Assembly: GCA_958295815.1 (NCBI GenBank)
Contig: OY282374.1
Span: 4,244,682 to 4,308,681, forward strand
Length of the DNA stretch: 64,000 bases
Direction: 5' to 3'
DNA from: Candidatus Poribacteria bacterium
Lineage (GTDB): Bacteria; Poribacteria; WGA-4E; WGA-3G
Both the position numbers and the translations under genes were made by a program. The stretch's first letter is position 1; every line of letters begins with the position of its first letter. The notes under the pieces are model-generated. The model ran no database searches. It saw only the letters and a list, made by a program, of their open reading frames with translations, and had not been told where the DNA came from. Below, in pieces: positions 33,323-46,465 of this stretch.

Positions 33323-33865
33323 ATGCAATTAGAAACAGCGACGTTTGGCGCAGGATGTTTTTGGTGTGTTGAGGCAGTCTTTCTGCAATTAGAAGGCGTA
33401 CACGAAGTCGTTTCAGGATACACCGGAGGAACTACCGTCAATCCGAATTATCAAGCAGTCTGTATGGGAATGACAGGTCATGCCGAGGTGATTCAAATCC
33501 ATTTTGATCCCAGCGTTATCTCTTTCGAGGATCTCCTGGAAGTCTTATGGCACACCCACGATGCGACCACACTAAATCAACAAGGGGCTGATGTCGGCAC
33601 ACAGTACCGTTCCGCCATTTTCTATCACACAGAAGAACAACGTCGCATCGCAGAAAAATCTAAAACAGAAATGGATGCTTCTGATATGTGGGACAACCCC
33701 ATTGTCACAGAAATCACACCCATAGATACCTTCTATCCTGCCGAAGATTACCACCAAAACTATTTCCAATTGAATCCACGGCAGCCGTATTGTCAGTTTG
33801 TGATCCATCCAAAGATGCAAAAATTCACAAAGGACTTTAAGGACAAACTCAAAAATGATCAATAA
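33323..33865 (+). CDS. msrA: Peptide-methionine (S)-S-oxide reductase
   Basis: 180 residues with the MsrA active-site motif GCFWC (Cys12 catalytic, Cys15) and the conserved GYTGG, GHAEVIQIHFDP and QYRSAIFYH segments. It reduces methionine-S-sulfoxide in proteins. No MsrB domain is fused, and no signal peptide is seen, so it is cytoplasmic. No clear Shine-Dalgarno precedes the ATG. A resolving Cys may be in PYCQFV near the C-terminus. The next gene on the same strand starts just downstream. Confidence 0.95.
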   Translation: MQLETATFGAGCFWCVEAVFLQLEGVHEVVSGYTGGTTVNPNYQAVCMGMTGHAEVIQIHFDPSVISFEDLLEVLWHTHDATTLNQQGADVGTQYRSAIFYHTEEQRRIAEKSKTEMDASDMWDNPIVTEITPIDTFYPAEDYHQNYFQLNPRQPYCQFVIHPKMQKFTKDFKDKLKNDQ

Positions 33866-33908
33866 ATACGCCTTGAAAGCGGACACTACAACATACACAC
33901 GAAGGGTG

Positions 33909-35492
33909 ATGCCAAAAATCGCAAGCGTCACCCTAAAATCGCACCTGATAAAATTTGTCGCTATCATCTGTTGTTTCAGTGTTGGAACCGTAATTGCCCA
34001 AGAGGCATCGCCGGTCGCTGTACCGATCACGACAGCACGACGCGGCACAATCGTTTCCACAAAGCAATACACAGGACATTTAGAACCACAAGCAGAGGTA
34101 ACAGTATTCGCCAATGTTTCGGGAAAGATTGTTACCGTAAATGCAACTGTTGGACAAAGTATAACAGAAGGCGATGCACTTGCGGAGATCGACTCAAGTG
34201 AAGTCACACTTGCCGCAATACGCGCCGAGTCAGCATTAAGTAACGCCCAGTCCCAACTCACATTAAAAGAAGCTAACGCCCAATCCCGTGTTGAATCTCA
34301 GCTGGTAATTGCCCAAGAAAGGTTAACGACAGCACAATCGGAACTTGTGGAGACAAGAGCACTCGCTGAAATGCGGATCCGCAACCGACTGATACAAGCT
34401 GAAGTAGCACATCAAGAAGCCAAGGATACAATTGAAAAAGCGAAAACAAATGCAGAACAAGGGTTGGAACGTGCCACAGTCGAGCGCGACGACGCTAAAG
34501 TCGCTTATGATCGAGACAAGGTGCTTTACGAGAAACAACACATCAGTAAGAGTAATTTTGAATCCGTAGAAAAACGGTTGAGACTGACGGAAACCCGTCT
34601 GGAAGAAGCCAGAATTACAGCACAGCAGTTTGAGGAAGGTTCGACACATCCTTCCGTGGAAAGGGCAAGAGCAGAATTAGGTGTTGCTGGGAAACTTGTA
34701 GAGATCCGCAGTTGGGAGCGTGAGATCGCTTTGGCAGAGTCAAAGGTTACTCAAGCAGCCGCCGACCTCAGTACAGCACAAAAACTGGTGGAAGCAAAAT
34801 CCTGGGAACAAGAGATCGAAATTGCGAGATCAGCGGTGCGTCAAGCCGAAGAACAACTCAAAACCGCCCGGGAACAGATGAATGATGCCACTATTAAATC
34901 CCCGATCAATGGCGTTATTGCAACACGTCATTTAAACGTCGGAGACTATGCCCGACCCGCAACATCGCCTACGGGAAAACCAATATTCACAATAATCGGC
35001 ATAGATGCACTCACAGCCGTCTGGAGCATGCCTGTCGCCGATGCCCGCCGCATTAATAGCGGCGAACTCGTCCTAATCTCCACAGATGCTGGTATTCGGA
35101 ATATCGTCGGCACAATCGATTTCATCAGTCCGACGGTTAACCGTGAAAACAACACCGTGCTTGTCCATGCAACCGTCCCGAATTCCATTGGAACACTCTC
35201 TCATAACAACGGTCTTAGGCCCGGCGGCACAATCACAGTTTCCATCAAAACAGGTGAACGAAAAAACGTACAACTCCTACCTTTGAGGGCAGTCTTACAC
35301 ATTCAGAACGGAACCGGGACTATCTTCACCGTTAAAGGAAACGCAGCGCACCGAGAACAGGTAAACGTTGGCGGTGTTTACGGTGACGAGATAGAGGTTA
35401 TCTCGCGACTTGACAACGGGAAATCAGTAGTGATTCTCGACGAACAACACAGGTTACAGGAAGGAACGCCGGTATCCATCCTTCGTGAATAA
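33909..35492 (+). CDS. HlyD/RND-type periplasmic adaptor (membrane fusion protein)
   Basis: 527 residues. A signal peptide (SHLIKFVAIICCFSVGTVIA) precedes the first half of the lipoyl/barrel-sandwich domain (GHLEPQAEVTVFANVSGKIV, GQSITEGDALAEIDSSE), a very long alpha-hairpin coiled coil (about residues 95-325), the second lipoyl half (ATIKSPINGVIATRHLNVGD) and beta-barrel/membrane-proximal domains. Such adaptors link an inner-membrane pump to an outer-membrane channel. No pump or TolC gene is adjacent. The ATG at 33909 follows GAAGGGTG; an ATG at 33855 overlapping msrA is the alternative. Confidence 0.87.
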   Translation: MPKIASVTLKSHLIKFVAIICCFSVGTVIAQEASPVAVPITTARRGTIVSTKQYTGHLEPQAEVTVFANVSGKIVTVNATVGQSITEGDALAEIDSSEVTLAAIRAESALSNAQSQLTLKEANAQSRVESQLVIAQERLTTAQSELVETRALAEMRIRNRLIQAEVAHQEAKDTIEKAKTNAEQGLERATVERDDAKVAYDRDKVLYEKQHISKSNFESVEKRLRLTETRLEEARITAQQFEEGSTHPSVERARAELGVAGKLVEIRSWEREIALAESKVTQAAADLSTAQKLVEAKSWEQEIEIARSAVRQAEEQLKTAREQMNDATIKSPINGVIATRHLNVGDYARPATSPTGKPIFTIIGIDALTAVWSMPVADARRINSGELVLISTDAGIRNIVGTIDFISPTVNRENNTVLVHATVPNSIGTLSHNNGLRPGGTITVSIKTGERKNVQLLPLRAVLHIQNGTGTIFTVKGNAAHREQVNVGGVYGDEIEVISRLDNGKSVVILDEQHRLQEGTPVSILRE

Positions 35493-35526: not shown

Positions 35527-37677
35527 CTACAACTCGTCCTCGGAAATATCGTCGATGCCGGTGAGATTGTCGAGTTTTCCAGAGTATTCCCAACCGCCCT
35601 CTTGGGCTTTGAGACTCTTGATCCGATCAATGACAGCCTTGCGGTATCCCGCGGAAGGGCGAATGTCCTTGTGGAATTGGTTATGCTTGAGACCCAACTT
35701 CTCGCGGATGCGCTTCCAGGCAAGAGGTTTCAAACCTGCGGCATTAATCCGAAGTTCGACGACTTGGACCGCGATATCATTGCGATCCTTCTCGGTCGTC
35801 TCCGTTGCTGTAGTTTCGGAAATCCCTTCAACGCTCTCCGTCAGGGATTCAACGGTAATTTCCTCGAGCTCGGTTGAAATGTTGTTTTCACGCAATATTC
35901 GCTCATTACCTATATCCACTTTCTTCTGTATTTCTTCCCAAAGTTGTTCAACTGAATGCTCATATTGAAAGTCTGGACAATTCACTGTCTCCTTTTTCAG
36001 TTTATCTCCTACACGATATGTTTTCGATTCTTTCAACTCTGTTCGGGTGGTTGATAAGCGTCTTATATCCTCTTTGTTTTGTTCTAAGAACCCCAATTCC
36101 TCAAAGATAGAGAAACCTGTTTTAATACCCAGTTTCGTCATATTCAATTCGTTCTCTTGACAAAGTTTATTACAAAGATTTTCAAGATTAATGTACGCTC
36201 GCTCTGTTGGTGTATGGTCTTTGAATTTTTGGTACAGTGTTCTCAACGCTGCTTCACTGGGATACATTTCCGCTATCTCTTCAATATTTTTCTTACTCTC
36301 ATAGATGAGATGCAGATAAGCATTTTTCGCTGACGTAAAAGCAGGTTCACATTGCTTGAAGAATTTATCTACACCCGGGGTAAGGTGACAAAAAATAAGG
36401 TGCTCAACACAATGCCTGGATGCCAACGCAGAAAACGTAGCATTTGAGACAACAGCAATTAACTCACCATTCTCAAGTTTTTCCAGAATCTCCATTTCTT
36501 GGGCATCAGACGTTTGCGCATCGTGTTTCCCAATAACTTTTGCGTTCTCTGATCCGACAAGTCCCAGTAACTGATTAATCTTCTCTTCACTTTGAACATA
36601 GATTATAGCAGGCTGCTTTTGTTCCAAAAGCTTTAAAAGGTAATTCTTTTTATTCATCCCACGCCGGTCAAGTATTCGGACAGGAAAGTCAGTGCCAAGA
36701 GGTGGAAATACCGATTGGTCACTGATTGCTACTGTAGTTAGTAAGTTCCGCGTTACCACGAGGCACTCTTCAGAAACACGCTTCTCAGCTTGGACTGCTG
36801 CGAGTTCATTTGACGTATCAGTAAGGCGTTCTTCAGACTTCTTCCACTCCCCTTTCGTATCCTTCAGCTCCTTAGACTTAGTATCAAGACGTGTCTTATA
36901 GTCAGCTTTTGCTTCTTCAGATTCTTCTAAACGTTTTTTCCCGCCCGCCACTTCACTTTTAAGTTTGTTATTCCTCTCCTTTGCATTCTTCAGGTTCCTA
37001 TCTAATTTCTTACGCTGTTTCTCTTTCTCATCTACGTTTTGCAAAAGCACCGCGTTTTTTTCTATATATTCGTTCTTCTCTGACCCCGCATCCTTTGAGC
37101 GTTTTTTTGCTTCTGCGATGGATTTTTTATACTCAGCATTTTTCGCTTCCACAATCTTTAAGCGTTCTTCGGCTTCCGCAAGACGTTCCGCAGTGTCATC
37201 AAAAAAGAGTTCATCTCGGATAGCCTCTACCTCACACTGCTTGTCCGGTCTGTTGATTTTGCGGAGGACTTCAGCCATGAGAAACATGTGCACCCGAGTT
37301 GATTCGCATTCAACATCTTCCTCAGGTGGATGCGCAACATCCTTGTCTCGCCGTGTTTTTACAAGCCAAAGTTGGTTCCGAAAGTCTTTGTCATCCTTGA
37401 GAGGTTTTTCAAAAATGTTACTCCAATTCTGACGAATGAGATGTGGAAAATCACCAACGTCAATTATAGATTTAATATCGCGATCGGATTGCTTCAACTC
37501 ACGTTCAATTTCACCAGCACGATTATATTGTTTTGCGTCGTGCAATGAATTCATGACCACATCTTCAATCTTCTCACCCGGAATCTTTTTTAAATGAAAA
37601 ATAATGAACGCACGCATGTAAGTACGGTATATGTTCAACGCTTTATTGAGTGCTTCTTGGTTTGGCCATGAGTCCAT
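35527..37677 (-). CDS. Swt1-type HEPN, coiled-coil, helicase-like multidomain protein (candidate defence gene)
   Basis: 716 residues. The N-terminal domain (about 1-150) resembles Swt1-like HEPN: ALNIYRTYMRAFIIFHLK, then LWLVKTRRDKDVAHPPEEDV with Arg110-x5-His116, matching the catalytic HEPN RNase motif. Residues about 165-310 are a charged coiled coil. About 325-470 look like a helicase C-lobe (QPAIIYVQSEEKINQLLGL, GELIAVVSNATFSAL, VEHLIFCHLTPGVDKFFKQC) without the ATP-binding N-lobe. About 470-560 resemble the RecJ/RecQ-associated C-terminal region (MYPSEAALRTLYQKFKDHTP), and the end is a small helical DNA-binding-like domain. No partner gene is adjacent. Confidence 0.7.
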   Translation of the reverse strand: MDSWPNQEALNKALNIYRTYMRAFIIFHLKKIPGEKIEDVVMNSLHDAKQYNRAGEIERELKQSDRDIKSIIDVGDFPHLIRQNWSNIFEKPLKDDKDFRNQLWLVKTRRDKDVAHPPEEDVECESTRVHMFLMAEVLRKINRPDKQCEVEAIRDELFFDDTAERLAEAEERLKIVEAKNAEYKKSIAEAKKRSKDAGSEKNEYIEKNAVLLQNVDEKEKQRKKLDRNLKNAKERNNKLKSEVAGGKKRLEESEEAKADYKTRLDTKSKELKDTKGEWKKSEERLTDTSNELAAVQAEKRVSEECLVVTRNLLTTVAISDQSVFPPLGTDFPVRILDRRGMNKKNYLLKLLEQKQPAIIYVQSEEKINQLLGLVGSENAKVIGKHDAQTSDAQEMEILEKLENGELIAVVSNATFSALASRHCVEHLIFCHLTPGVDKFFKQCEPAFTSAKNAYLHLIYESKKNIEEIAEMYPSEAALRTLYQKFKDHTPTERAYINLENLCNKLCQENELNMTKLGIKTGFSIFEELGFLEQNKEDIRRLSTTRTELKESKTYRVGDKLKKETVNCPDFQYEHSVEQLWEEIQKKVDIGNERILRENNISTELEEITVESLTESVEGISETTATETTEKDRNDIAVQVVELRINAAGLKPLAWKRIREKLGLKHNQFHKDIRPSAGYRKAVIDRIKSLKAQEGGWEYSGKLDNLTGIDDISEDEL

Positions 37678-38003: not shown

Positions 38004-39134
38004 CTACACTCGGCGCAAGACATAGACCCGAATCTGCTCCCATTTCCGTTTCGATCTGTGCGTCGCAACCCGCCTTTTAAAGAGAGTCTCCGCCTCAAAA
38101 CCTGCCTCCGCAATTATAGCTTCCAAATTACCAATCGCCTTAGGTCCTGAAGCATCAGCGTAACCCAATAAAATCGTACTATCAGGCTTTAGGAAATCCG
38201 AGACCTGCGAAAAAAAGCGTTTGACCGTCTCCTGTTTCTCATCGTGTATGGCGAGTTCTGCACGGTTACGAACGCGGGCGACAACCCACGGAGCATTGAA
38301 AAGGATTACATCAAACTGCTGAGAAGGAAATGGGTCAAACAGGTCGCCGGGCGGCATTATCTGTACAGTATCCGAATTCGGGAGAAGTCGCTGAAGATTC
38401 AGTTTCGTCGTTGCGACCGCTTCAGGAAGCAAATCAGAGGCATACACCCCAACCTGTTCGCCTAATTCCTGCCGTGCCAATAACGTTAAACACCCGCTGC
38501 CACACCCAACATCAGCGACTATAGTAGCGGAATGGTTTTCACGGACATGCTGTAACGCCTCTTGAAAACACTCAATCGTCTCTTGTGAGCGCGGCGCGAG
38601 GACGTTTTCGGAAGCCACAAGCGAGGCATCAAGTGCCTGGATAGGGTAGGTCTCCGCCAAGGCACTCTGAATTTGTTGGATCTTCGTCAGAGACAAAAGA
38701 AACGGTTTCCCTTCATTTGCCCCAGTCGGTTCACCCGCAAGTTCCAACAAGTACGGAAGGTCAGGCGCAGGTTCAACCTGCAATATCCCATCCGCATCCG
38801 CCCAACACATGAGTCTGGCTAAAGCCTCTTGCAAAGCACGACTTGCGGACCTCCCGCGCGACTCCCTCCGATCCCGCGACTTGGCATCACGTGGCAATTG
38901 CTGGACCAAATCCTGCCTATGGCGTTGGATATAGTCCATCACCTCCATAATTCTGTCCCACTGTCCCTGCACAACCGCAACACCCTCATGCCGGATATGC
39001 GTGAAGATCCGATTGAGATGCCTTAAGTCTCGATCTGCGAATACCTTGACGCGTGCGCGTGCAAAAACAGCATCCCGACACTCAACAGGGACATAGAGTT
39101 CACCAATGTTGCCAACAGAATAGAAAAATTCCAT
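38004..39134 (-). CDS. Class I SAM-dependent methyltransferase of the HemK/RsmC (MTS) type
   Basis: 376 residues. The C-terminal catalytic half has motif I VADVGCGSGCLTLLAR and motif IV FDVILFNAPWV, an NAPW in place of NPPY of N-methyltransferases acting on amides or exocyclic amines (HemK, RsmC). The preceding ALDASLVASENVLAPRSQET matches the PrmC-like lead-in. The N-terminal 190 residues are an unrecognised domain that may bind substrate. It could modify a release factor, rRNA or a small molecule; the sequence does not decide. It ends in tandem repeats on its 5' side. Confidence 0.82.
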   Translation of the reverse strand: MEFFYSVGNIGELYVPVECRDAVFARARVKVFADRDLRHLNRIFTHIRHEGVAVVQGQWDRIMEVMDYIQRHRQDLVQQLPRDAKSRDRRESRGRSASRALQEALARLMCWADADGILQVEPAPDLPYLLELAGEPTGANEGKPFLLSLTKIQQIQSALAETYPIQALDASLVASENVLAPRSQETIECFQEALQHVRENHSATIVADVGCGSGCLTLLARQELGEQVGVYASDLLPEAVATTKLNLQRLLPNSDTVQIMPPGDLFDPFPSQQFDVILFNAPWVVARVRNRAELAIHDEKQETVKRFFSQVSDFLKPDSTILLGYADASGPKAIGNLEAIIAEAGFEAETLFKRRVATHRSKRKWEQIRVYVLRRV

Positions 39135-42220: not shown

Positions 42221-42743
42221 GGCATCTGTCCTAACTATGGTGAATCCTAACAATAAACAGACACTTCTGCCATCCATAAACCCAACAACAGAATACTCCT
42301 GTTCGGCGAGGTCTCCGTGCCTCGGCGATGCAGAGTGTCCAAGTAATTCTAAAATCTACCATAAATGCCCGTGTTTAGTAACTAACGTGAGTTCGACATA
42401 AAGGTGAGAGAAATCCGAAACAATATATCATGCCTATCGAAGATTTGATGACGAATATGATCTACACTCCAGAGGAGTGTTATGTCTATAGAGAACCAAT
42501 GCCAAAGTCCCAGCACTCCAGCGGAGTGCTATGTGTCGGAACACCACACACCGCGCCGCTGGAGCAAGGTGGAGGTTTTGGGTGTCACATAGGTCTCGAT
42601 TTCGTTAAATTGAACTTATGTTCAAATTTTCGGATAGTGAAAGAGAAGTTGCTGGCGTATCAGACGCAAGGGTTCTGGGGTCGGGTGTTTCGGAGGATGC
42701 CGTATTAGCGAGTAGCGGTCAGCAGTCAGGGGTCAGTTAAGAG
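42221..42743. other. Intergenic region with ACTCCAGnGGAGTG palindromes, no believable gene
   Basis: Holds two ACTCCAG-(A/C)-GGAGTG palindromes (about 42467-42480 and 42516-42529) each followed by TTATGTCT or CTATGTGT. An open frame at 42430-42708 consists of repeat sequence with no family likeness or ribosome site, so I do not call it a gene. Confidence 0.4.
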
Positions 42744-42786
42744 AGCGGAATGTGGGGTTTGCGGATCCTGTGTTCCGCTTTTTTTC
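42744..42786 (+). terminator. Terminator-like hairpin
   Basis: AGCGGAA (42744-42750) pairs with TTCCGCT (42773-42779), followed by seven or more T. The orientation is plus, though no plus-strand gene is called upstream; it also sits just beyond the stop of the minus-strand HNH gene and may stop transcription that way less well. Confidence 0.5.
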
Positions 42787-42809
42787 TTTCGCTATAAGTA
42801 GTTTTGGGG

Positions 42810-44153
42810 TTAAAGATTGTTTTTAGTTTCATGCGAATGGGCTATTATAGTGGGGTTTATATTTGTGTCTATAAAGCAATGAAACGGTTTTAGAGGTGTG
42901 TCATTAGGTCCGTATGGAATATGTAATGCTCTTTGAATTTTAAGTTGTTTATCTTGTAAATTTGTGTGAGTAGAGTCTGTTAAACAGATAATCTTTCTTG
43001 ATTCAAAATCATATTGTTGAGGGAACAATTCTACAACACAATATAGTGACTTATTCCAAAGAAAGTAGATAAGAGTATGACAATCAAATTCATTAGGGTA
43101 GCGTTTTACTAACCTTAATTCCATATCAGTTATGGGGTTTTGGGTATTGGGATTACCGAGTATAAAATCCTTGATATTCTTTAATTCAGGTTCATATCCA
43201 GTATATTGTTTTGTTGTATTTAGTTCATAATGTTTTTTTGACATTAGAGGTGAACTTCTAATATCTTTTTCTTGGATTAATAACCCGTTGAGAGCAATTT
43301 TAGTATATGCTCTGTCAATCAGTGGATCTGCTGCTGTGCTAAAAATCACGAGCGTTCTCAATCCTGTATTGGGGCTATTAATAAGTATGTTCTCAGGAAT
43401 AAATCTTTTTTGAATCTTCTTTGTTAGAGGTAGTGGGCGTGTTTGTGCTAATTCTTTACTTGTTATTAGTTCTTGTTCCATTGTGTGTAGATTAAGGTCA
43501 TAGTCGTTAATTAGTGTTCTTTTTAATTTTTCGGGGTCTAAATCATTTTCATAAATTAATTCGTTAGATATAATATAAGTATATTCACCTAATTTAATGA
43601 CTCTTTGTTTATCGTCAATTATCTGAAGTAAGGATTGGTTTTCTATATTAGTCCCATTGTATATGGTTTTCCGTGATCTATTCATTAGTTTTATATTCTC
43701 GGAGCGAATTTCTCTCACGCTTTTTCTTGAAGTGTCGTACAACGCTATTTGATAAAGCATTGTTATTTGATTTTCCTCAAGTGATAACCTAATGGGAAGT
43801 GGGTGCAAATCAGGACTCATCATATAATGCCTTGGTGAAGCGTATCTACCCTCCAATAATTTACGTTCGCTAGTAAAGTATCGGTGTTGGGGTTTTTCTG
43901 ATTTTTTATGAATTTTATGGAATAAAGATATCTCACTAAGGTGTATTAGAGCCTCGTCAATGTTAAATGAACTGTTGCATTTCTTGCAAACTCTATGATT
44001 GATAGTCAACCCATGGCTAAAATCTTTTCCTGTTTCAGGATTTGTAATTGAAAGGGCTTGTGGAATTAGGTGTTCGCCACTCTCATTATTTTTCTTCCTT
44101 TCTGATAAACCACAATACATGCATTCGTATTCAGATACATATTGTTTACTCAT
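42810..44153 (-). CDS. HNH endonuclease-like protein with large unknown C-terminal region
   Basis: 447 residues. The N-terminus is a zinc-binding HNH_5-type module: CMYCGL, then GEHLIPQAL (the EH pair), then NHRVCKKCNSSF (second CxxC and the Asn). The other 370 residues match nothing I can name. The gene is clearly richer in A+T than its neighbours and uses AT-ending codons, which suggests recent transfer. A perfect 10-bp palindrome lies 58 bases upstream and a terminator hairpin beyond the stop, so it stands as its own unit. A role in defence or DNA processing is possible, but only the nuclease motif is seen. Confidence 0.75.
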   Translation of the reverse strand: MSKQYVSEYECMYCGLSERKKNNESGEHLIPQALSITNPETGKDFSHGLTINHRVCKKCNSSFNIDEALIHLSEISLFHKIHKKSEKPQHRYFTSERKLLEGRYASPRHYMMSPDLHPLPIRLSLEENQITMLYQIALYDTSRKSVREIRSENIKLMNRSRKTIYNGTNIENQSLLQIIDDKQRVIKLGEYTYIISNELIYENDLDPEKLKRTLINDYDLNLHTMEQELITSKELAQTRPLPLTKKIQKRFIPENILINSPNTGLRTLVIFSTAADPLIDRAYTKIALNGLLIQEKDIRSSPLMSKKHYELNTTKQYTGYEPELKNIKDFILGNPNTQNPITDMELRLVKRYPNEFDCHTLIYFLWNKSLYCVVELFPQQYDFESRKIICLTDSTHTNLQDKQLKIQRALHIPYGPNDTPLKPFHCFIDTNINPTIIAHSHETKNNL

Positions 44154-44210
44154 ATTCTATATCCTTCTCTGCTATTTCAACTGTGCAATAAGTTTTGTCT
44201 GCGTGTTGTT

Positions 44211-44237
44211 CTCTGTGGAATTGCCTGTTCCACAGAG
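44211..44237. promoter_or_regulatory. 10-bp palindrome upstream of the HNH gene
   Basis: CTCTGTGGAA-TTGCCTG-TTCCACAGAG, a perfect inverted repeat 58 bases before the HNH start codon. It could be a repressor site or a 5'-UTR hairpin. Confidence 0.45.
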
Positions 44238-44279
44238 AGTTGTAGATTTCAATATATATTATAACAAATTTTATCAGGG

Positions 44280-44517
44280 TTAACTGACTTTTTTTATTTT
44301 CGATGTGTTGGGGGGCAGCGTGGAGGGTTCTGCGCTGGGAACCAAGGGGTAGCGGTGAATTGGAGGTGAGAGTTTGGGGCACGTCTGGGTTGCTGGTGAG
44401 AGACGGTGCTGTGGTGTTGGACGGTGTAGCGTGCAATGCGAATATAGGGTTGCCCGTGCTGCGGTTGGGGGAGGGTTGCAAGGTTGCAGCTTTGTAATGT
44501 GGTAGGTCTGCAACGTT
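44280..44517. other. G/T-rich non-coding stretch
   Basis: The plus strand is strikingly rich in G and T and poor in C over about 240 bases, unlike the AT-rich HNH gene beside it. Overlapping frames on both strands are open by composition and have no family likeness. It ends near GCAAGGTTGCAGC, related to the palindrome at 45.95 kb. I see no gene. Confidence 0.4.
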
Positions 44518-44988
44518 TTATGTATTCAAAGTTTTTAGGAAGATGTCTCTGGATCCGCCTTCAGGTCCTGGTGGTGCCTTCGCAAAAGGTTCAAAACCCA
44601 TCTTCTTGTAGAATTGTCGCGCTGGCTGACCATCGGGATTGTCGGCACCGAATGTTGTGACATATAACTCGGTGGATGGCTGGATCATATCATATATATG
44701 CGCTAAGAGCACTGTGCCGACACCCCTACGACGCCATTGCTCTGCTACGGACAGCCAGCCAATATGGTATGCGGGTGATCTGAAAGACAGAAACAAGCCT
44801 CCCATCAACGGTGCCCCCTCATATTGATCTCGTTCCCGCACACAGTACGCACTTCCCCGATCTATATTTTTCCGGAGTGCGTCGTGAAATTCAGGCTGAT
44901 CAACCATAGGTCCGAAAAGAGACTCTACCTCTGATGCCAGTGCAAGCCAACTCGGAATATCAGCACGTGTAGCGATTTGGACTTTCAT
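44518..44988 (-). CDS. GNAT-family N-acetyltransferase
   Basis: 156 residues starting MKVQIATRADIPSWLALASE. The acetyl-CoA-binding motif A is WLSVAEQWRRRGVGTVLLAH (RRxGxG), followed by LYVTTFGADNPDGQPARQFY (KKMGFE), the usual C-terminal GNAT signature. It would transfer an acetyl group to an amine; the substrate is unknown. It is a single gene in the accessory islet, and its codon use is like the main genome rather than the AT-rich HNH gene. Confidence 0.88.
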   Translation of the reverse strand: MKVQIATRADIPSWLALASEVESLFGPMVDQPEFHDALRKNIDRGSAYCVRERDQYEGAPLMGGLFLSFRSPAYHIGWLSVAEQWRRRGVGTVLLAHIYDMIQPSTELYVTTFGADNPDGQPARQFYKKMGFEPFAKAPPGPEGGSRDIFLKTLNT

Positions 44989-45499
44989 TAGGCTTTTCCT
45001 GCAATAAAGAATGCGTGTGCCGTTTGTCTGAGATACACAAAATCACACGAGTGTCTAAAAAAATGTCGCATTTTATTATGAATTTGTGCTATACGGTGTT
45101 TCGGCATCCGTAACACCGTAATAGGTGGTTCGGCGAGAGGGTTACTCTCCCGAACCGCGGCACTGCCAAGGCGAGTTGCCAGCGCGAGTTTAATTATATC
45201 ATATTTTTCGGTAAATGTGTCTGATATTTTAAACTGCGTCGGGATTTACTGTTTTCTTTGGAAAGTCTCGTGAATTCTGATTCGACGTTGGAGACGGTAT
45301 GCCGGGTAGTCCCACTACCCCCGTCTCCCCCCATTGGCAAATTGGGGACTCGCCGTGTCTGTATCTTGATGCGGGTAACGTCAAAATACCACAAAGATTT
45401 TTTATAGAACTATGTTGTTGTGCAGTTGTTGGGTTTCGCGCTGCTCTACCCAACCTACGGCGTAGATGGACTGTGCATCAACACGTGAGAGGTTATATC
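44989..45499. other. Intergenic region with strong hairpin
   Basis: Holds a hairpin at 45127-45156: GGTTCGG-C-GAGAG-GGTTA-CTCTC-CCGAACC. The rest, including a frame open from 45299, reads as non-coding upstream DNA. A structured RNA is possible but not shown. Confidence 0.4.
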
Positions 45500-45853
45500 G
45501 TGTCAAATTTCGATCCGTACGATCCGGATGCCCCGATGCAATTTGAGGTAAACTTGAATATACCGCGTTTTATCCCTAGTGCCGTGCGGAAGAAAATGAA
45601 ACGGGCTGAAATTATGGTGTACCTGCATCTCGTCTCAATCACTTACGAGGCGACGGATAAGATGCGAGGGTTTTTCCCAGTCGCACAAGAGTACGACCTA
45701 TCGCGAAACGAAATTCTGATATGGTTGCATATTGCGTACGACGGTTCAGTGAATCCGAGGCATATCAGTCGCAAGCTACGGATCCCGATTCGCTGGGTCG
45801 AAAAAGCTTTGGTTGTGCTGGAAGAGAAAAACGTCGTCGAGGGAAAAGAGTGA
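45500..45853 (+). CDS. Small protein with winged-helix-like C-terminal part
   Basis: 117 residues from a GTG at 45500, seven bases after GAGAGG: (M)SNFDPYDPDAPMQFEVNLNI. The region RAEIMVYLHLVSITYEATDK, PVAQEYDLSRNEILIWLHIA, NPRHISRKLRIPIRWVEKAL, VVLEEKNVVEGK resembles a winged-helix layout seen in phage replication or transcription proteins. No firm family. The frame is open further upstream to 45299, but that part has no ribosome site. It lies in the islet with a terminase-like HTH gene, so a phage origin is possible. Confidence 0.6.
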   Translation: MSNFDPYDPDAPMQFEVNLNIPRFIPSAVRKKMKRAEIMVYLHLVSITYEATDKMRGFFPVAQEYDLSRNEILIWLHIAYDGSVNPRHISRKLRIPIRWVEKALVVLEEKNVVEGKE

Positions 45854-45947
45854 CTGGATGGGTTAAGAAGGACTGCTAAAAGATTAGCAATCTTATTGTA
45901 TTGTCGAGGCGTTCGGGGTACGTGTGTGGTTATAGGTGTATTGCAGG

Positions 45948-45979
45948 GCTGCAAGGCTGCAGTAATTCAACCTTGCAGC
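45948..45979. repeat. 9-bp inverted repeat GCTGCAAGG/CCTTGCAGC
   Basis: A perfect inverted repeat with a 14-base loop between two convergent small genes. It lacks a T-run, so it is either a weak terminator or a repeat; a related half-site GCAAGGTTGCAGC lies near 44.48 kb. Confidence 0.45.
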
Positions 45980-46015
45980 GTAGGCGGGTATGATGCACGG
46001 TTCATAACAGGTCTT

Positions 46016-46393
46016 TCAAGCGTTCCAGTCGAAGGTTCTCGCCCATTCCCGGACTCTCTCACTCTTGATGCCGATCTGTGTGCCGACGGTGGATGCGAGC
46101 TTATGTTTTGGGACGCCTTGATCTTGTGCGGTACGGTATGCTTGTCGTGCTTTCTCGAAGTCGGGGCTGGCTTGCATATCGCGTGCGGGCCGGACACGGA
46201 AGTGGCGTTCGCCCTGATAACCAAGTGTTTCCAGTACCTCTTTCCAGCGTGCGCGTTCTGCCCAACGGTAGATATTGCGTTCAGTGGTGTTGAGTTTATC
46301 GGCGATCTCTTTGGCGTCGCGGGTATAAGTTGCGAAGAGTCCTGCGGCGACAGTGATACGGATGTCTGTTTCGGCTTTACTTTTGTTTGGCAT
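46016..46393 (-). CDS. Terminase-small-subunit-like helix-turn-helix protein
   Basis: 125 residues. AGLFATYTRDAKEIADKLNT followed by TERNIYRWAERARWKEVLE is an HTH of the kind in phage gpP-like terminase small subunits; the second half (KLASTVGTQIGIKSERVREW) looks like another HTH. No terminase large subunit or other phage genes are seen. A frameshifted partial copy lies just upstream at 46466-46720, so the gene has been duplicated in tandem. It may be a domesticated DNA-binding protein or the remnant of a mobile element. Confidence 0.7.
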   Translation of the reverse strand: MPNKSKAETDIRITVAAGLFATYTRDAKEIADKLNTTERNIYRWAERARWKEVLETLGYQGERHFRVRPARDMQASPDFEKARQAYRTAQDQGVPKHKLASTVGTQIGIKSERVREWARTFDWNA

Positions 46394-46465
46394 AGGGGCG
46401 TGACTCCTTGTATAGCGGTCAGCGATCAGGGCGGGCGTGTGCAGCTTTTATTATCTGTCGGTTAG

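Follow-up and report, generated by a model that had tools for sequence, protein, structure and literature searches.

A Swt1-like HEPN protein with a RecJ-derived C-terminal domain in a polymorphic chromosomal slot of Candidatus Poribacteria

Four described groups of proteins share parts with the one studied here. The HEPN-DUF499 ATPases of Type-1 BREX-related systems (PMC12839542; Ava_2192 group, PMC3710099) begin with the same Swt1-type HEPN domain and are found in the same genus (locus L106), but the focal protein lacks the ATPase and a DUF1156-type neighbour, and has a coiled coil and a RecJ tail instead. RecJ itself ends in a C-terminal domain (PF10141; S. aureus RecJ, 8y30) that is homologous to residues 322-595 of the focal protein, whose tail is sister to that of its own family's RecJ; the focal protein lacks the DHH/DHHA1/OB nuclease core of RecJ, and its tail is fused to HEPN. 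Tha, a phage defence protein encoded by a single gene (PMC11087260), likewise combines a separate N-terminal region with an R-x4-H HEPN RNase in one protein. Tha is the closest working counterpart, although the comparison concerns only the way it works, since its HEPN domain is C-terminal, it is triggered by phage tail proteins and it is prophage-borne. CoCoNuTs (PMC11090510) likewise contain both coiled coils and HEPN RNases, in some cases with wHTH domains attached, but these are multi-gene McrBC-type GTPase systems whose components are missing from the focal locus. RecJ goes unmentioned in the 2013 HEPN survey (PMC3710099) and in two later surveys of related systems, and a literature search for HEPN, Swt1 and RecJ combined returned nothing.

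The focal gene lies in a window of 64,000 nucleotides, which is the whole stretch of DNA that was analysed. Its ORF is uninterrupted, starts with ATG and runs from 37677 to 35527 on the minus strand, which the preliminary description had not given. The features of the locus are:

38004..39134, minus strand: methyltransferase (c1), slot flank given for context only; immediately upstream in 19/21 loci
35527..37677, minus strand: whole gene, HEPN - coiled coil - RecJ C-terminal domain - C-terminal module; 716 aa, single ORF
37204..37677, minus strand: Swt1-like HEPN domain, residues 1-158; Pfam HEPN_Swt1 in the family, AF2 pLDDT 89, all-helical
37330..37350, minus strand: catalytic-type motif R110-D-K-D-V-A-H116; R and H invariant in 47/47 HEPN domains
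36742..37200, minus strand: coiled coil, residues ~160-312; SMC profile match over 146-304, 49% charged, heptad periodicity
35893..36714, minus strand: RecJ C-terminal domain (RecQ-like lobe 2 plus winged helix), residues 322-595; 37% identity to the organism's own RecJ C-terminus, Foldseek, PF10141, tree
35530..35844, minus strand: exchangeable C-terminal helical module, residues 612-716; also found in further HEPN proteins that lack the RecJ part
33855..35492, plus strand: efflux-type periplasmic adaptor (c6), slot flank; on the other side in 13/21 loci

Twenty homologues of the focal protein were aligned, and members of the full-length homologue set (n = 21) were 37-62% identical to the window protein. 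The gene is under purifying selection (dN/dS ~0.1-0.2); relative to close homologues, values were dN 0.08 and dS 0.61 for the HEPN domain and dN 0.10 and dS 0.53 for the RecJ tail.

The preliminary description had proposed a Swt1-like HEPN domain bearing an R110-x5-H116 motif and followed by a long coiled coil, and each of these proposals held up. The motif is not a chance occurrence: R110, H116 and W85 do not vary across the 47 HEPN domains compared, which represent all architectures, whatever the fusion partner, and among the 21 full-length homologues E125 and R128 are invariant as well. Its spacing is R-x5-H in the focal protein and R-x4-H in most relatives. The HEPN_Swt1 profile matched the focal protein below the cut-off (E = 0.09); its best match in the family reached 1.2e-5, and two sister proteins (L088 and L095) scored 35.0 and 29.7 bits against a curated cut-off of 27.5. 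When PDB sequences were searched with the HEPN profile, only chance matches came back. The AF2 model of this part was confident and all-helical, and its top PDB match in a fold search was yeast Swt1 (4pqz), a weak match at E 1.5. The N-terminus is thus supported as a Swt1-like HEPN domain with an intact R..H motif and a weakly matched fold. The coiled coil, ~150 residues in length, matched an SMC-type profile (E 2.2e-7), and its heptad periodicity was reached by 1% of shuffles.

On the strength of its observed motif and probable fold, the domain is predicted to be an intact metal-independent RNase. Some members of the HEPN superfamily are regarded as RNA-binding domains without catalytic activity (PMC3710099), and a protein that retained only the HEPN fold might act as a non-catalytic RNA- or DNA-binding regulator. 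We consider this very improbable, because those members lack R-x4-6-H whereas here the arginine and histidine are the same in all 47 domains.

For the C-terminal half, the preliminary description had listed a helicase-C-like lobe without Walker A or DEAD/DEAH motifs, followed by a RecJ/RecQ-like region. The focal protein indeed has no Walker A and no DEAD-type lobe 1; the match is to lobe 2 only. The lobe is real (Helicase_C E 0.0065, matched in 15 of 21 members), but its interpretation as a degenerate helicase was wrong, and the RecJ/RecQ-like region was a good hint that had been counted as something separate. Because lobe and winged helix together match the tail of RecJ, what had been described as a "helicase lobe" and a "RecJ/RecQ-like region" is one domain, and the missing ATPase half never belonged to it. 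The last ~105 residues, in contrast, form a module of their own, for which a Pfam scan gave no match.

The case for RecJ rests on sequence, structure and phylogeny. A search of the organism's own genome (one 5.13 Mb contig) returned one other match, the C-terminus of the RecJ ORF (37% identity over residues 322-591). In Pfam, this RecJ ORF consists of DHH, DHHA1 and RecJ_OB followed by a Helicase_C-like tail, whereas the same scan detected no DHH/DHHA1/OB core in the focal protein. PF10141, the RecJ C-terminal family, matched two homologues (best 1.2e-4). An AF2 model of residues 316-716 (pLDDT 78) retrieved the D2-Zn-WH part of RecQ (6jtz, E 2e-6) and S. aureus RecJ (8y30, E 2e-5) from the PDB with Foldseek. 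The broken-helicase reading was accordingly rejected on Pfam, Foldseek and the tree described below; a C-type lectin, the best PDB sequence match of the tail profile, was dismissed as a repeat artefact. In a tree of 68 tails, which takes in other families and classes of the phylum and whose midpoint root falls among the outside families, the 26 HEPN-fused tails formed one clade (100/100), with the RecJ tails from the same family as its sister group (100/99 for the two together). Residues ~322-595 are therefore a true homologue of the RecJ C-terminal domain, acquired in a single event from the RecJ of this family. At 29 positions, including R339, H426, C430, H431, E527, Q571 and W580, residues are at least 90% identical in both fused and RecJ tails; several of these are polar, which suggests that the fused tail may have retained a binding surface. 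Median identity within the genus was 62% for the fused tail and 68% for RecJ's own tail, so the fused tail evolves only slightly faster and carries no strong arms-race signal.

The HEPN domain and the RecJ tail have not travelled together. One homologue shares 85% identity with the window protein in HEPN and 58% in the RecJ tail, while another shares 38% and 81%, and over all pairs the two identities were nearly uncorrelated (rho 0.15). On the HEPN tree, at least five changes are required to account for the presence of the RecJ tail, and HEPN domains from other loci (L087 and L089) are nested among those of the focal slot. Elsewhere, the HEPN-coil unit is fused to DUF4268, Mrr_N, DprA_WH, HTH_31 or S1 tails, mostly at a second locus that also recurs, where the neighbouring gene was identified as GH129 in the member tested. 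HEPN types and tails are thus swapped at fixed loci.

The second recurring locus is represented by L087, L088, L089, L090, L093, L095, L096, L098, L099, L100, L102 and L105; tails there are highly variable, and most copies adjoin the GH129-type gene of ~772 aa. Two other loci encode HEPN proteins with S1 RNA-binding repeats (L103:5660-8034 and L104:5372-8307). The neighbour of the first is a HepT/Polbeta fusion gene, as in AMPylating toxin-antitoxin pairs, and L104 has a gene of similar size and position. A class of ~1100 aa in the same genus proved to be HEPN-DUF499, with a HEPN domain of the same subfamily. In L106 (7508-15728), such a HEPN-DUF499 ATPase gene has a DUF1156 gene close downstream, an arrangement resembling that described for BREX-related systems (PMC12839542), and this locus is probably Type-1 BREX-related. 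Proteins of the same size with this type of HEPN domain occur in many genomes of the genus. A Type-1 BREX-related system would unite a DUF499 ATPase, an N6-methyltransferase and a helicase at one locus. At the focal locus, the focal protein has no DUF499, no helicase gene was seen alongside it and c1 is a methyltransferase-fold protein without DUF1156.

The focal slot lies at a fixed position among housekeeping genes, and its content is polymorphic. Beyond the methyltransferase on the upstream side, whose gene order is kept in a second genus too (L053), the other side carries the efflux adaptor, MsrA and more conserved genes in 13 of 21 loci. In 24 of 38 genomes of the genus there is a gene with the HEPN-RecJ tail architecture, and one more has a broken copy. 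The gene is broken across two frames in G034, and all that is left of it in G021 is a C-terminal remnant, but some genomes are draft assemblies and such single broken copies may be errors. In G025 and G037, the slot holds a HEPN domain with a different tail, which in G025 weakly resembles HSDR_N (E 6e-4, below cut-off). Genes for a kelch-like protein and DUF6575, which are unrelated, occupy it in G033 and G023, and in G018, G013 and G012 the flanks c6 and c1 abut, ~50-125 bp apart with no gene between. The loci at which the focal slot holds a HEPN-coil gene joined to an HSDR_N-like (type I restriction) domain, below the Pfam cut-off, are L120:3066-4841 and L118. Some homologues have a large ORF as neighbour (c13); most of these ORFs encode repeat-rich surface or WD40-type proteins, and they were set aside as unrelated. 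Elsewhere in the window, positions 42430-46465 hold genes that cluster with no neighbour in the 20 syntenic loci. The product of one, at 42810-44153, weakly matches HNH_5; others encode a GNAT acetyltransferase and a TrmB-like protein, and the rest are unknowns.

The preliminary description had proposed that the neighbours of homologues be inspected for defence genes. None came to light: no defence genes adjoin the focal gene in the 21 loci, where the flanks are housekeeping genes and the position is vertically conserved, and no defence island was found. PADLOC reported nothing beyond coiled-coil noise, a search for relatives on known plasmids or phages gave no match, and viral contigs yielded no relatives of the HEPN or RecJ-tail domain. 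A defence island or mobile element was rejected on these grounds. It had also been held that homologues always located next to housekeeping genes would refute the defence hypothesis. As to position this is largely the case, the same methyltransferase being the neighbour at 19 of 21 loci. What the slot contains is polymorphic, however, and since it has clean absences and replaced tails, a housekeeping position does not settle function.

A role in RNA/DNA maintenance, in which the RecJ tail directs the HEPN domain to stalled forks or R-loops so that its RNase activity can clear RNA there and aid repair, would agree with the conserved position in two genera, the purifying selection, the origin of the tail in a repair enzyme and its modest evolutionary rate. 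We nevertheless regard it as unlikely: the gene is absent without trace in three genomes of the genus and broken or replaced in others, its sister proteins bear restriction-type tails (Mrr_N, DUF4268), and a DUF499/DUF1156 locus uses the same HEPN subfamily.

DUF6575 genes turn up repeatedly in the focal slot (L040:4362-4931, L048:6972-7400, L054, L055, L125 and L119), usually just downstream of the HEPN gene. As they occur in a minority of slots only, DUF6575 was rejected as an obligate partner. HEPN toxins often have partner genes, and the focal protein could be the toxin of a toxin-antitoxin pair whose partner has escaped recognition, as the HepT/Polbeta neighbour of the S1 sister and the DUF6575 gene after the focal homologue in several loci would allow. 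No partner is constant, however: the gene stands alone in the window, and DUF6575 is confined to a minority of slots. We think this reading improbable. Among the neighbouring ORFs, the two flanks (c1 and c6) are conserved and, by size and family, not MNT.

We favour a solitary modular HEPN effector whose RecJ docking surface senses abnormal DNA processing, upon which RNA is cut, and give this reading a probability of roughly 45%. The anatomy of the protein and its evolution are established by the analysis; RNase activity, trigger and defence role are what we infer for it. The Swt1-like HEPN RNase would probably dimerise through the long coiled coil, with the C-terminal half as a putative address or trigger module. 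To judge from the invariant residues it shares with RecJ, the tail may still engage RecJ-tail targets, for example ssDNA, DNA ends or a partner in repair or replication. A possible parallel is Deinococcus, in which the RecJ C-terminal domain binds HerA (PMC4663267); HerA itself was considered as a candidate partner, but Pfam DUF87 gave no match in the organism's own genome. During phage replication or severe DNA damage, target sites would become abundant or altered, HEPN, inhibited until then via the coiled coil, would be released or clustered, and RNA cleavage would lead to dormancy or abortive infection. Swapping of tails and HEPN domains at fixed loci would re-aim the effector. The suggestion in the preliminary description of a single gene combining sensor and effector is strengthened by the module swapping, but the putative sensor is not a degenerate helicase.

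The tail could alternatively be bait, so that a phage protein attacking or hijacking RecJ, or a partner of RecJ, would set off the HEPN. The domain was copied from the lineage's own RecJ with RecJ-like residues kept, and tails are interchangeable, as such a guard or integrated decoy would have it. Yet this analysis identified no phage antagonist of RecJ's tail, the viral contigs are without relatives of either domain, and binding of normal partners or DNA accounts for the same data; we hold this reading to be doubtful. It is similarly unlikely that the protein is an integrated-decoy immune protein, with the copied RecJ tail as bait for phage proteins directed at repair or replication, of a mix-and-match family that re-aims one RNase by exchanging tails of host or restriction origin and keeps to fixed chromosomal slots.

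The DNA scan of public genomes used close-relative patterns, and the near relatives that it found were all labelled Candidatus Poribacteria; HEPN-RecJ tail fusions in other phyla may therefore have been missed. HEPN is combined here with a borrowed RecJ tail and in relatives with other parts that recognise DNA or RNA, and this suggests that the protein is a self-contained alarm and shutdown device with a host-derived trigger. If this is true, a defence-type RNase has been re-aimed by capturing a piece of the host repair machinery, and such an effector sits away from defence islands, where guilt-by-association searches miss it. The fusion also offers a route to what the poorly understood C-terminal domain of RecJ binds.
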